Source: Thiomicrospira sp. (GTDB taxonomy: Bacteria > Pseudomonadota > Gammaproteobacteria > Thiomicrospirales > Thiomicrospiraceae). From it: 36,872 nucleotides of DNA. The position numbers were made by a program, and so were the translations under genes. Below, in pieces: positions 30,367 through 35,287 of this stretch. The notes below the pieces were generated by a model. The model was not told the DNA's origin. It saw only the letters and a program-made list of their open reading frames with translations, and did no database searches. The stretch covers positions 1 to 36,872 of the forward strand of contig JAUUDE010000086.1 of the NCBI GenBank assembly GCA_030826915.1, read 5' to 3'. Position 1 is the stretch's first letter. Every line of letters begins with the position of its first letter.

Positions 30367-30410
30367 ACGCGCAATTTAATGGATTCAAAATTTCAAGGTA
30401 ATTGCCAATC

Positions 30411-32126
30411 ATGAGAACTTCAAACTTACTTATCTCAACCACTCGTGAAACCCCTTCTGATGCGGTTGTTATCAGCCATCAGTTGATGCTTCGTGCGGGT
30501 ATTATTCGTTCACTAGCCGGCGGTTTATACAACTGGTTACCATTGGGTGTACGTGTTTTAAGAAAAGTAGAAGCGATTGTTCGTGAAGAGATGAGTCGTT
30601 CTGGTGCTCAGGAAGTCTTAATGCCTGTGGTTCAACCTATGGAACTTTGGGAAGAATCAGGCCGTGCACAGGATTATGGCCCTGAGTTATTACGTTTTAA
30701 AGACCGACATGCTCGTGACTTTGCTCTTGGACCAACTCATGAAGAAATCATTACAGATTTAGTGCGTAAAGAAATCCGTAGCTACAAGCAATTGCCTGCA
30801 AACTTCTTCCAAATTCAAACTAAATTCCGTGATGAAATCCGTCCTCGTTTTGGAGTAATGCGTTCACGTGAATTTATTATGAAAGATGCCTACTCTTTCC
30901 ATATGGATAAAGAAAGCCTACAAAGCACCTATGAAGAGATGTTTGAAGCATACAATCGAATATTTACTCGTCTAGGTTTAGACTTCCGCCCTGTCCTTGC
31001 AGATACAGGTTCAATTGGTGGTGACGCTTCTCATGAGTTTCATGTATTAGCAGATTCAGGGGAAGATGATATTGCCTTTTCAACCGGTTCAGATTATGCC
31101 GCCAATGTTGAACTTGCAGAAGCCGTCGCTCCAAATGGCGAGCGTGGAACGCCAACCGAAGAATTAACCGAAGTTGCAACACCGAATAAACACTCTATTG
31201 AAGAAGTCTGCGATTTTTTACAGCTTAAGAAAAAGAAAATTATTAAAACTCTTTTGGTTAAAGGTGCTACTGAAGAAAACCCAGTTGTGGCTTTAGTGGT
31301 GCGTGGCGACCATGACTTAAACGAAATCAAAGCAGAAAAGCTTGATTTAGTGGCAGAACCTTTTGAAATGGCAAAAGATGAAGAGATTGCTGCAGCCGCA
31401 GGTTGTGGTGCTGGTTCAATTGGCCCTGTCGGCTTAACAATTCCAGTGATTGTTGACCGTACAGCCGCCCACATGAGTGATTTTGTTTGTGGAGCAAATA
31501 AAGATGGTTTCCACTTTACTGGTGCAAACTGGGATCGTGATGCAACGCCTACTTTGGTTGCAGATATTCGTAATGTGGTTAAAGGCGACTTTAGCCCTTG
31601 CGGCAAAGGTAAAATTGAAATTCGCCGTGGTATTGAAGTAGGCCATATTTTCCAACTTGGTAATAAGTACTCAACAGCTCTGAATGCAACGGTACAAAAT
31701 GAAAACAGCCGTTCACAAATACTAGAAATGGGTTGTTATGGCATAGGTATAACCCGTGTTGTTGCCGCCGCGATTGAACAAAATTATGATAACCGCGGCA
31801 TCATCTGGCCAGAAAGCATTGCACCTTTCCAAGTATGCATTGTACCAATGCAAATGCATAAGTCGCCGCGAGTTCAAGAGGCCGCTGAAGCGATTTATAA
31901 TGAGTTAATTGCAAAAGGTATTGAAGTTTTATTTGATGACCGTAGCGAGCGTCCTGGCGTCATGTTCTCTGATATGGATTTAATCGGAATTCCACACCGT
32001 ATCGTCATTGGTGAAAGAGGTTTAGATAAAGGCATGATTGAATATAAATATCGACGTGATGAAAAATCACAAGATATTGAAGCGGATGGCTTTATGGAAT
32101 TCTTAATGGCACAATTAGTTAAATAA
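30411..32126 (+). CDS. proS: Prolyl-tRNA synthetase, bacterial type with editing domain
   Basis: A 571-residue class II aminoacyl-tRNA synthetase that charges tRNA(Pro). The N-terminus [20 protein letters not shown], followed by [20 protein letters not shown], matches the long bacterial form. The catalytic core is split by the YbaK-like editing (INS) domain at about residues 225-400, which removes mischarged Ala. The anticodon-binding domain occupies about 470-571 and ends with [14 protein letters not shown]. The ATG at 30411 is chosen over a TTG at 30402 because it matches the family N-terminus; AAGGTAA lies upstream. A hairpin terminator follows. Confidence 0.97.
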
Positions 32127-32263: not shown

Positions 32264-32506
32264 ATGGATATTTTTCAAAAAATCTTTCTTTACTTAGGTG
32301 CTTTAATTGCGGCAAGTTTTTTAATTGTTGCTTTAATCGCGCTTTCTAATGCTGAAAATGGTCAATTAACCGTGGAAGGGCTTTCACATTTAGAGGGACA
32401 GTTTGTCTCTTTTTATGAGTTTTTTCGATGGATAGTCTACGTCTGGATGGCTTCTGCGATTTTTCTTTTTGTGCGTTTCTTATCGAGAATCTTTCGTAAG
32501 TCGTAA
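32264..32506 (+). CDS. Small membrane protein of unknown function
   Basis: An 80-residue protein I do not recognise. It has two hydrophobic segments (about 7-28 and 54-74) separated by an acidic, Gly-containing loop (NAENGQLTVEGLSHLEGQF). It ends in a basic tail (RFLSRIFRKS), suggesting both ends face the cytoplasm. Start ATG 32264 has AGGATAA upstream, a good ribosome site, which together with the hydrophobic pattern supports a real gene. It lies after proS and its terminator and converges with the cyclase gene. Confidence 0.7.
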   Translation: MDIFQKIFLYLGALIAASFLIVALIALSNAENGQLTVEGLSHLEGQFVSFYEFFRWIVYVWMASAIFLFVRFLSRIFRKS

Positions 32507-32536: not shown

Positions 32537-33808
32537 TCATTCAGATTGATAAGTTGAAATCACAACTTTATTTCGACCTGTCTCTTTTGCTTCATACAAG
32601 TTTTGATCGGCTTTCTCAATATACGATTCTAAAGCATCATTTAATTTCTCAGGTTCAATAACTAACGCACCTATACTCATGGTTAATGGAATCGCTACAC
32701 CTTCCCATTCAATAACCAATTTTTCAACTTGCGCTCGAATTCGTTCTGCAACTTTAACAGTATTCTCTTCTGAGATATTGGATACAAACAGTAAAAATTC
32801 TTCACCGCCATATCTAAAAGCAACATCATGCTCTCTTTGATTTTGTTGTATGAGTTTTCCTAGCGCTTCAAGTACCTTATCCCCTGCCTGATGCCCCCAA
32901 GTATCATTAATTTTCTTAAAATGGTCGAGGTCAAGCATCATCATAGCCACAATCTGTTGTTTACGTGCAGACTTTCTAAAACTATCTTTTAGTTTACTTT
33001 CTAGAGAGTGTCGAAGTAGCAGGCCTGTTAATGCATCGTAATAGAGTTCTTCAATCGCTTGATGGGAAACCGCTAAACCAATTTGATTACTTAATGAAAC
33101 CGTAATAGCAAACAACTTAGCAAACATAAAATTTGCCAACATATAATCCTCTTCTCTAAAGAAAAAGGCCATACTCAAAGCTAAAGAATGTTGTTCAGTG
33201 TGAGAGATAATAATGCGTTGTTTTAATTCGTCTTCTACCTCTAAGTTTTGAATCATAGGTGTTAAAGGGCATAAATCAGCGGTTAAGATATCCGAATGTT
33301 GCAGTAATTCTTCTGATTGAAATCTGATGGTAATATTCTTCAACCAAATTAAAGAGTTAATCAAAACATCATGATCTTGTTCTGAATAAGCCTCCTGTAC
33401 ATTTTTGATAGACAATTCTAATTGTGATAAAACATCTTCAAATTGAAAAACCAAATAACCTTTGGCTAAATACTGCTCCATTTTTTCAATAATGTTATAG
33501 ATTGTAGTTGCATCAATAGACGTGTTTTTTAGCAAATTATCTCGCACCATACTTAAGGCAGAGACCATATCTTCAAAAGGTAATTGCATCTTGGCGTGCA
33601 TTAAACCAAGTAGTATGTAATTCTGTTTAAAGTCCTCATCAGACATAAATAAACTTTGATAGAAATTATCAGCCTGAAGCTTTATTAAAGCATTCACTTG
33701 CTCTTGGCCATCAAAAAACACTCGAAAGTGCTCTGATTCCATCATTACACGATAAAAATTTGTAAATGCATTTTCTATATTGTCTAATTTAATGGATGAA
33801 AAATCCAT
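32537..33808 (-). CDS. GGDEF diguanylate cyclase with globin-like N-terminal sensor
   Basis: A 423-residue predicted cytosolic enzyme that makes cyclic di-GMP. The C-terminal GGDEF domain (about 255-420) has YDALTGLLLRHSLE at its start, DLDHFKKINDTWGH as metal-binding segment and an active GGEEF site at 334-338. An RxxD motif (REHD, 325-328) five residues upstream should allow product inhibition. The N-terminal 140 residues resemble the globin of DosC-type sensors: FYRVMM with Tyr19 at the distal position and GLMHAKMQLPFEDMV with His71 at the proximal heme position, spaced as in E. coli DosC. Oxygen sensing is therefore inferred. A helical middle domain joins the two. The ATG at 33808 follows a GGGGGG ribosome site; a TTG twelve bases upstream is rejected. 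Confidence 0.88.
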   Translation of the reverse strand: MDFSSIKLDNIENAFTNFYRVMMESEHFRVFFDGQEQVNALIKLQADNFYQSLFMSDEDFKQNYILLGLMHAKMQLPFEDMVSALSMVRDNLLKNTSIDATTIYNIIEKMEQYLAKGYLVFQFEDVLSQLELSIKNVQEAYSEQDHDVLINSLIWLKNITIRFQSEELLQHSDILTADLCPLTPMIQNLEVEDELKQRIIISHTEQHSLALSMAFFFREEDYMLANFMFAKLFAITVSLSNQIGLAVSHQAIEELYYDALTGLLLRHSLESKLKDSFRKSARKQQIVAMMMLDLDHFKKINDTWGHQAGDKVLEALGKLIQQNQREHDVAFRYGGEEFLLFVSNISEENTVKVAERIRAQVEKLVIEWEGVAIPLTMSIGALVIEPEKLNDALESYIEKADQNLYEAKETGRNKVVISTYQSE

Positions 33809-33999
33809 CGTACCCCCCAAAATCTATCCAATAACTACAGAATAACTTTAAACGATGTTTGACTCTTTATTATATAAATCAATTACTTTTCTCGGTTTAA
33901 ACAAAATAAAAAGGTAAACAGCCGGTATATTTCAGACTTTTACAAGAATATAAGCTTTATGACAAATCCATGAATGTCGCCAGTTCTTTCAAACATTTA

Positions 34000-34008
34000 T
34001 GCTATGAT
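34000..34008 (+). promoter_or_regulatory. Extended -10 promoter of fklB
   Basis: TGCTATGAT, with the -10 hexamer at 34003-34008; transcription would start near 34015, 24 bases before the ATG. This supports the shorter protein start. Confidence 0.5.
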
Positions 34009-34038
34009 TTCTCTTTTTTATCAACTGGATTTTTAATT

Positions 34039-34659
34039 ATGTCTAATAACTTTACAACAACTCCTGAAATCGTGAGCTATGGAATTGGTCGTCAAATGGG
34101 TGACCAGCTTGCTGCGGATCCATTTGAAGGCGTAAGCCCGCAAGCTGTTGCCGCTGGTCTTATCGACTCTTTAGAAGGTACAGCAAGCCCAATTAGCCAA
34201 GAACAGTTTGCTAAAGCTTTTGAAGAAATCAACGAAATCATGCAGGCTAAGCACGCTGAACAAGCTAAAGTAGCTGGTGCACAAGGTGAAGCATTTCTAG
34301 CGGAAAATGCTAAAAAAGACGGGATTGTTGTAACCGATTCAGGCCTTCAATATGAGATTCTTGAAGCAGGTCATGGTGAAAAACCCGGTGTGGATTCAGT
34401 GGTGTTAACGCACTATCACGGTACATTAATTGATGGAACCGTATTTGATAGCTCAGTTGAGCGCGGCCAACCTGCTGAGTTTCCTGTAAACCGTGTTATT
34501 CCAGGTTGGACTGAAGCATTACAGTTAATGCCTAAAGGTTCTAAATGGCGTTTATACATCCCTCAAGAGCTTGCATACGGTTCAGCCGGATCTGGTGGAA
34601 AAATTGCACCTTTTTCTGCATTAGTTTTTGATGTAGAGTTGCTAGATATCCTTTCTTAA
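34039..34659 (+). CDS. fklB: FKBP-type peptidyl-prolyl isomerase FklB
   Basis: A 206-residue proline isomerase, the same length as E. coli FklB (FKBP22). The N-terminal helical dimerisation part (SYGIGRQMGDQLAADPFEGV, about 10-95) is followed by the FKBP catalytic domain (about 105-206) with LIDGTVFDSSVERGQPAEF, VIPGWTEALQLMPKG and IPQELAYGSAG. No signal peptide is present, so it acts in the cytoplasm, unlike FkpA. The ATG at 34039 starts MSNNFTTTPEIVSYGIG. A frame from 33970 adds 23 residues but would begin upstream of the predicted promoter. Confidence 0.94.
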   Translation: MSNNFTTTPEIVSYGIGRQMGDQLAADPFEGVSPQAVAAGLIDSLEGTASPISQEQFAKAFEEINEIMQAKHAEQAKVAGAQGEAFLAENAKKDGIVVTDSGLQYEILEAGHGEKPGVDSVVLTHYHGTLIDGTVFDSSVERGQPAEFPVNRVIPGWTEALQLMPKGSKWRLYIPQELAYGSAGSGGKIAPFSALVFDVELLDILS

Positions 34660-34729: not shown

Positions 34730-35287
34730 CTACCAAACAAGGTCGTCTGGAATTTCAAATTGAGCGTAGTAATCTTGATCCTCTTTGGATATAGAATCAT
34801 CATTACCTGGTATTTTAATTAACGCCTCTTTATCACGTTTTTCTACCTTTTCTGCCGCCTCGCTTGAAATCAGTATATAACTGCCACCAAAACGTACAAT
34901 ACGAATTGTTTCAACCACTAATCCTCTATGGATTTTTGAGTTAACATTAAGCCTTTTCACCTGTTTTCCATCTGCAAAGTGATAAACAATATCACCATCA
35001 TAATCATTGATTTTATTGGTATCTATAATTTGACGAAGCTCAGCTAACTTTGCTTTTTTAGCCTGTTGTTGCTGACGTTCCAGGTTTAACTTACGATCAC
35101 GTTTCGCCTTCTCTTCAGCCGCTTGAGCAGCAAGTAAAGCCGCCTCACTGACCACCGCTTGGCCTTTTTTGGTTTTATTCGCACGCTTCTTTTTATTCTG
35201 TTGATGCTGTTCTTGTTTGGCTTTTTTCGCCTTTTTTTCATCAACTAAACCGGATTTTTTTAATTGGTCAAACAATGAACCTGCCAT
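34730..35287 (-). CDS. DUF2058 family protein (YaiL-like)
   Basis: A 185-residue, strongly basic and helical cytoplasmic protein. The N-terminus MAGSLFDQLKKSGLVDEKKA, the Lys/Gln-rich coiled segment (about 17-95) and the C-terminal YHFADGKQVKRLNVN and GGSYILISSEAAEKV blocks are the DUF2058 signature. E. coli YaiL belongs to this family. The charge suggests nucleic-acid or ribosome association, but function is not established. It converges with fklB and shares a terminator with it. Start ATG 35287 has AGAAAAGAG upstream. Confidence 0.88.
   Translation of the reverse strand: MAGSLFDQLKKSGLVDEKKAKKAKQEQHQQNKKKRANKTKKGQAVVSEAALLAAQAAEEKAKRDRKLNLERQQQQAKKAKLAELRQIIDTNKINDYDGDIVYHFADGKQVKRLNVNSKIHRGLVVETIRIVRFGGSYILISSEAAEKVEKRDKEALIKIPGNDDSISKEDQDYYAQFEIPDDLVW

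Follow-up and report, generated by a model that had tools for sequence, protein, structure and literature searches.

The window analysed here, a stretch of 36,872 nucleotides from Thiomicrospira sp., carries a gene whose product is probably a heme-based, O2-sensing globin-coupled diguanylate cyclase built on the plan of DosC. What is new here, for a globin-coupled diguanylate cyclase, is a middle domain in which most of the metal site of CZB domains is retained. Globin, middle domain and GGDEF domain make up the plan of DosC and BpeGReg, as set out in sections of PMC5549716. By analogy with these proteins, the cyclase would be expected to bind heme and O2, to form a dimer and to have its activity controlled by O2.

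Gene structure and genomic context

The cyclase ORF lies at 32537..33808 on the minus strand, with its ATG at 33808 and its stop codon at 32537-32539, and encodes 423 amino acids plus stop. It is supported by a Pfam GGDEF match (E 3.4e-46), a Pfam Protoglobin match (E 4.4e-4; 20.7 bits, under the cut-off of 25) and its relatives. An earlier note on this DNA, made from its letters alone, had described an ORF with Tyr19, His71, a GGEEF motif and an inhibitory RxxD site, and each of these was confirmed. The protein consists of a sensor globin (residues 1-139; 33392..33808, minus strand), a CZB-like four-helix middle domain (residues 140-255; 33044..33391, minus strand) and a GGDEF domain (residues 256-423; 32540..33043, minus strand). 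Both catalytic-domain motifs are intact, as the note had held, GGEEF at residues 334-338 and the inhibitory RxxD (REHD) at 325-328. In the full-length model, the GGDEF domain compares with that of DosC (4zve) at Z 24.9. The frame allows an upstream extension of no more than four residues (to a TTG at 33820), and the short N-terminus of the cyclase is therefore not an annotation slip.

The ORF at 33970-34659, which we take to encode an FKBP-type isomerase, is divergent from the cyclase gene, while the ORFs at 30402-32126, presumably encoding ProS, and at 32264-32506 are convergent with it. The latter encodes 80 residues with two hydrophobic stretches. In Thiomicrorhabdus sp. Milos-T2 (L001), the counterpart of the cyclase is 73% identical and is flanked by relatives of the window ORF 34730-35287 and of ProS; the isomerase gene is absent there. 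A search of the window placed an FNR-type box with two mismatches at 33869-33882, upstream of the cyclase gene. Across the whole window, 59 FNR-like sites with at most two mismatches were counted against 40.4 (sd 7.1) expected, a number reached by none of 100 shuffles, and because such matches are so numerous the one at 33869-33882 is not used as evidence. No sigma-70-like promoter pair was found between 32100 and 34100, against 8.9 (sd 3.0) in shuffles.

Distribution and phylogeny

The cyclase belongs to a clade of 11 members (P0001, L001, L002/L006/L045, L005, L007, L008, L009, L010, L011, L012 and L013), found in 11 genomes from three genera of one order, within an order sample of 60-62 genomes. 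The clade profile A2 matches in 13 of 62 order genomes, two of them (G012 and G024) through globin-EAL proteins that do not belong to the clade. Of the 369 genomes in the class sample, 6 hold A2 matches; two are clade members (G000 and G037), and the other four end at model position 149-174 of 255, so that they cover mostly the globin part. The single match in the phylum sample of 398 genomes is this genome itself. With the middle domain alone as query, matches were obtained in 10 of 60 order genomes, all of them known clade members; G008 lies outside that sample.

The phylogenetic tree was built from 45 chosen GGDEF domains. The 11 clade members form one branch (88/90, present in 86% of bootstrap trees), classic globin-coupled cyclases (10 of 13 used) form a separate branch (95/87), and three CZB-GGDEF proteins form another (94/93). 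The tree gives no supported order among these three branches, and L046, L042 and L049 are ungrouped.

The N-terminal globin domain

The globin resemblance that the earlier note had proposed for the N-terminal 140 residues was borne out by a family profile, by profile-profile comparison and by the AlphaFold2 fold. The Protoglobin match of the cyclase is the only one at E 0.01 in its genome, an assembly about 86% complete. At E values up to 10, Protoglobin is matched by all but one of the 11 proteins in alignment A1, the best with E 1.1e-9, and the cut-off is passed by the clade members of G015, G044, G048, G053, G055, G057 and G037. Matches to the profile start only at position 26-32 in the clade, as they do in several further short sensor globins from the order, and at position 15-21 in the classic members. 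In the cyclase the match begins at position 32 of 158, leaving about 30 N-terminal profile positions without a counterpart. A globin without its A helix is still able to bind heme, as the mini-hemoglobin of Cerebratulus does.

Searched as one sequence against PDB sequences with phmmer, the globin region returned no globins and one irrelevant match. Profiles were built from alignment A6, which comprises ten N-termini, eight from the clade together with L046 and L049, and omits L002, L007, L011 and L042; among the omitted, L002 and L011 carry Tyr in place of His71. Against 177,635 PDB sequences, the A6 profile led with 4uii (3e-6), 7o0i (2.3e-5), 2w31 (1.3e-4) and 8h17 (0.0063), followed by the unrelated chain 4v91 (0.012), HemAT (0.014), truncated hemoglobins and DosC (about 0.09). 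The two best matches, 4uii ('GGDEF domain protein') and 7o0i ('anti-anti-sigma factor'), which we take to be sensor globins, have their His in register with that of the cyclase, and 7o0i presumably carries another output domain. Profile-profile comparison of A6 with 13 classic globin-coupled cyclases of the order reached 95.7% (E 8.9e-9), against 0.2% in a similar run with a reversed partner, and brought His71 into register with the His of GEVHARIDVP in the classic proteins.

The AlphaFold2 model of residues 1-254, made with 15 aligned sequences, has globin topology (pLDDT 90.5, pTM 0.85). In VIA-align, all of the best 50 rows listed for this model are globins (Z 11.7-13.7), one of them titled only 'hexacoordinated heme protein', and the sensor globins among the matches listed have Z 11.9-13.6. 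The alignments with cytoglobin (Z 13.7), BpeGReg 6m9a (Z 13.6, 119 residues, 2.2 A), AfGcHK 5ohe (Z 13.6) and DosC 4zvb (Z 12.7) span 117-120 residues at 2.0-2.4 A. The comparison with globin-coupled sensors by which the note had proposed to check its claim was thus favourable, with Z 12.7-13.6 to DosC, BpeGReg and AfGcHK; since cytoglobin scores as high as the sensor globins, the fold match is one to globins in general. Foldseek gave no match at E <=0.001 for the 1-254 model, with globins still at the top of its list.

Tyr19 (codon 33752..33754, minus strand) is the predicted distal residue and His71 (codon 33596..33598, minus strand) the predicted proximal heme ligand. Phe18, Tyr19, Phe32, Gln45, Gly68 and His71 are invariant in all ten A6 rows, which are 21-75% identical to the cyclase. 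His71 is kept in 9 of the 11 clade members, with Tyr in L002 and L011. Both of the latter are draft sequences, L011 starting at a contig end and L002/L045 having an ambiguous base and a frame break. In another clade member, L007:1501-2766, the globin part contains an in-frame TAG, by eye near the slot of Gln45. Tyr19 (in FYRV) and His71 (in LMHAKMQLP) lie 52 residues apart, a spacing that the note had likened to that of DosC. Tyr19 is invariant in A6 and His71 is in register with the His of the classic proteins, and this part of the claim holds; the spacing taken alone is weak evidence, as a Y...H pair 49-56 residues apart within the first 140 residues also occurs in 3 of 24 other window ORFs (likely genes as chosen, with two short ones and antisense ORFs excluded). 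It is conservation, seen in the invariant residues and in the Protoglobin E of 1.1e-9 of a relative, together with the modelled globin fold, that lifts the Tyr/His spacing above chance.

The CZB-like middle domain

Residues 140-255 are predicted with high confidence as a helical bundle. Residues 140-421 of the full-length model align with residues 10-290 of DgcZ (4h54) over 258 residues at 4.2 A (Z 23.9), a score to which the GGDEF domain contributes. Among the best 50 rows listed, none besides DgcZ aligned as many residues, and three with 233-245 residues have rmsd values of 7.0 to 17.8 A; the alignments of the full model with two DgcZ chains in Foldseek have rmsd values of 7.8 and 8.4 A. A middle-domain profile of nine clade sequences, compared by hhalign with 15 CZB domains of the order, reached 92.1% (E 6.3e-7), against 0.2 and 0.5% in reversed controls. 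Taken apart, the CZB subsets gave 87.2% (three EAL proteins), 7.9% (three GGDEF proteins) and 2.8% (nine chemoreceptors). Pfam CZB finds no match in the cyclase or the A1 proteins at E up to 10. Searches of PDB sequences returned no CZB structure and nothing relevant with the middle-domain profile A4, and nothing at E 0.01 with the CZB profile A5. What ties the middle domain to DgcZ is thus the fold, together with the profile match to CZB domains from within the order.

The middle domain of DosC has a Pfam family of its own, PF21118 (DosC_2nd), titled 'DosC CZB-like middle domain', which shows that the CZB likeness of the DosC plan was already known. PF21118 finds no match at E up to 10 in the cyclase or the A1 proteins, an absence of little power because the classic member L133 itself reaches only E 0.012, under the cut-off. 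No profile similarity was found between the clade middle domain and the 13 classic middle domains of the order (0.4%), and an attempt to join the classic middle domains to CZB or to the clade by profile failed, at 0.4% each.

The zinc site of CZB domains, made up of three His and one Cys, is incomplete in the cyclase, where three of the four ligands are aligned. Alignment and hhalign place Cys180 (codon 33269..33271, minus strand) with the zinc Cys, His203 (33200..33202, minus strand) with a zinc His and His207 (33188..33190, minus strand) with the last zinc His. Ser152 (33353..33355, minus strand) occupies the position corresponding to the first zinc His (His22 in DgcZ), an alignment that fits the pairing of model residue 140 with DgcZ residue 10. 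Cys180, His203 and His207 are invariant in the nine aligned clade members and present by eye in L006 and L007, that is, in 11 of 11, and they remain so where the middle domains fall to 25-29% identity. The first His slot has Ser, Ala or Pro in all 11 members, and the Gly of the CZB Cys motif is replaced by Thr (Thr183 in the cyclase) or His. In L046, L042 and L049 the globin His is present and all three of these residues are missing.

Comparison with known cyclases

DosC of E. coli (also YddV, EcGReg or DgcO) and BpeGReg have, like the cyclase, a sensor globin, a CZB-like four-helix middle domain and a GGDEF domain in the same order, and share with it the Phe-Tyr pair, the proximal His, GGEEF and RxxD. 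Unlike the DosC type, the cyclase matches Protoglobin only from position 32 (from position 16 in the classic L133); unlike DosC, it has Cys180 and His203xxxHis207 in its middle domain and lacks a pair like His223/Lys224 of DosC, with no HK anywhere in residues 140-255. This His-Lys pair is essential in both DosC and BpeGReg according to sections of PMC5549716, and in parts of PMC7033309 it is placed in a pi-helical kink that contacts the globin. The same parts of PMC7033309 describe the route of the O2 signal from globin to cyclase as unknown and put the middle domain at its centre.

DgcZ (YdeH) of E. coli, a zinc-inhibited CZB-GGDEF protein, aligns with the cyclase in middle domain and GGDEF domain, and the Cys and the HxxxH of the cyclase stand as in CZB. 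The likeness extends to a Trp, described in sections of PMC8262984, that stands three residues beyond the first-His slot. In contrast to DgcZ, the cyclase has Ser152 for the first zinc His, Thr183 for the Gly of the Cys motif, a globin in front and no Pfam CZB match. For DgcZ, parts of PMC8262984 state that its cyclase activity is inhibited by zinc and that the zinc Cys is the residue through which hypochlorite acts. No description of a protein with globin, partial CZB and GGDEF was found in the available sections of the literature on globin-coupled sensors and CZB (PMC5549716, PMC7033309, PMC8262984, PMC8846402, PMC8041772 and PMC4331095). Two of these do name both domains: the legend of Fig. 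6 of PMC8262984 lists globin among the domains found with CZB, and a passage of PMC4331095 names globin and CZB domains among the c-di-GMP proteins of Acidithiobacillus caldus.

Other globin and CZB combinations in the order

Several further proteins of the order combine related domains. L127:634-2667, L128:321-2339 and L129:403-2418 are EAL proteins in which a Protoglobin match (E 9e-4 to 8e-3) precedes one to CZB (E 2e-6 to 1e-3), with neither reaching the cut-off. They resemble the cyclase in this pairing of a weak Protoglobin match with CZB, and differ from it in their EAL output, in the presence of all four zinc ligands and in having, by eye, no His at the globin slot. L043:1474-3324 and L044:1474-3312 contain a short sensor globin with its His (Protoglobin over the cut-off) and an EAL domain, and may be O2-linked phosphodiesterases. 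In one alignment, their region aligned with CZB keeps two zinc His without the Cys, and Pfam finds no CZB there.

L145:986-3244 and L146:547-2805 contain Protoglobin (E 4.7e-9 and 1.7e-4), GAF and EAL. By eye, both have a His at the globin slot, and their C-terminal tail holds a His, CP(M/L)T and HxxxH, which is the motif of the middle domain of the clade. The tail reaches 11.8% over 18 columns with the clade middle domain, against 0.2% for the reversed control, and 1.0% with CZB; Pfam finds no CZB in either protein. L115:574-1851, L116:529-1806 and L117:537-1829, of about 430 residues, contain an unassigned N-terminus of globin size, a CZB over the Pfam cut-off and a GGDEF domain. Neither profile comparison (0.5%) nor Protoglobin, which gave no match with E values up to 1, showed this N-terminus to be a globin. 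A trade-off between the globin His and a complete set of zinc ligands was suspected and is contradicted, by eye, by L145 and L146. Across the c-di-GMP enzymes of the order, heme and Cys/His motifs are repeatedly combined, and no simple exchange between them holds.

Proposed mechanism and alternative readings

In the proposed mechanism, His71 of the globin (residues 1-139) would ligate the heme, and Tyr19 would lie on its distal side. O2 bound to the heme would change the globin, the CZB-like bundle (residues 140-255) would relay this change, and the altered bundle would change the way in which the two GGEEF domains meet and hence the output of c-di-GMP, with product inhibition predicted at RxxD. 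Cys180, His203 and His207 might hold a metal with one open place, or form a redox thiol, and so tune the same cyclase. Because three of the four CZB zinc ligands are kept, the middle bundle may have a function in metal binding or in thiol redox chemistry; this role is speculative and on balance doubtful. The full arrangement, a cyclase with two inputs in which the heme O2 sensor and an open three-ligand Cys/His/His metal or thiol site govern one GGDEF domain, is somewhat unlikely, and the same applies to the suggestion that the site would take zinc, iron or copper and that its signal would be sulfide, an oxidant or a metal.

That the N-terminus is a four-helix sensor without globin ancestry, its Tyr/His spacing a coincidence, would agree with the Y...H pairs in 3 of the 24 other window ORFs and with the one-sequence PDB search empty of globins; this reading deserves hardly any credence, being contradicted by the profile, profile-profile and model comparisons, all of which point toward globins. 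It is improbable, if less so, that the globin fold no longer binds heme, or that its heme is unused, so that the globin would be structural and the Cys/His/His site of the middle domain the real input. The clade keeps these three residues in 11 of 11 members and His71 in 9 of 11, as such a reading would have it, and L127-L129 offer a parallel in which CZB ligands accompany a weak Protoglobin match without a His at its slot; against it, the two members with Tyr are the drafts noted above, and His71, Tyr19, Phe18, Gly68 and Gln45 are invariant in ten A6 rows at 21-75% identity to the cyclase.

A reading that comes close to an even chance takes the protein as an ordinary heme O2 sensor of the DosC type whose middle Cys and two His are kept for packing and not for a metal or redox function. 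It shares the heme part of the proposed mechanism and competes with it only over the middle site. Consistent with it, the middle domain of DosC is itself called CZB-like in the title of PF21118, a His-Lys pair of that domain is essential in DosC and BpeGReg (in the sections of PMC5549716 cited above), and each of the 11 members is one zinc ligand short. However, the kept residues are exactly those of the ligand columns and are invariant at 25-29% identity of the middle domain, and all three are absent from L046, L042 and L049, in which the globin His is kept. The heme-based, O2-sensing cyclase on the DosC plan is thus common ground between this reading and the proposed mechanism.

A clade that keeps most of the zinc site offers a natural test of two questions: whether a metal sensor was the ancestor of the middle domain, and whether gas and metal or redox inputs can join in one cyclase. 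If the two-input reading is true, L145 and L146, in which the motif was recognized by eye, would be matching two-input phosphodiesterases. Thiomicrorhabdus-like bacteria are sulfur oxidisers, and if the interpretation given here is true, they would have an O2-linked c-di-GMP switch.
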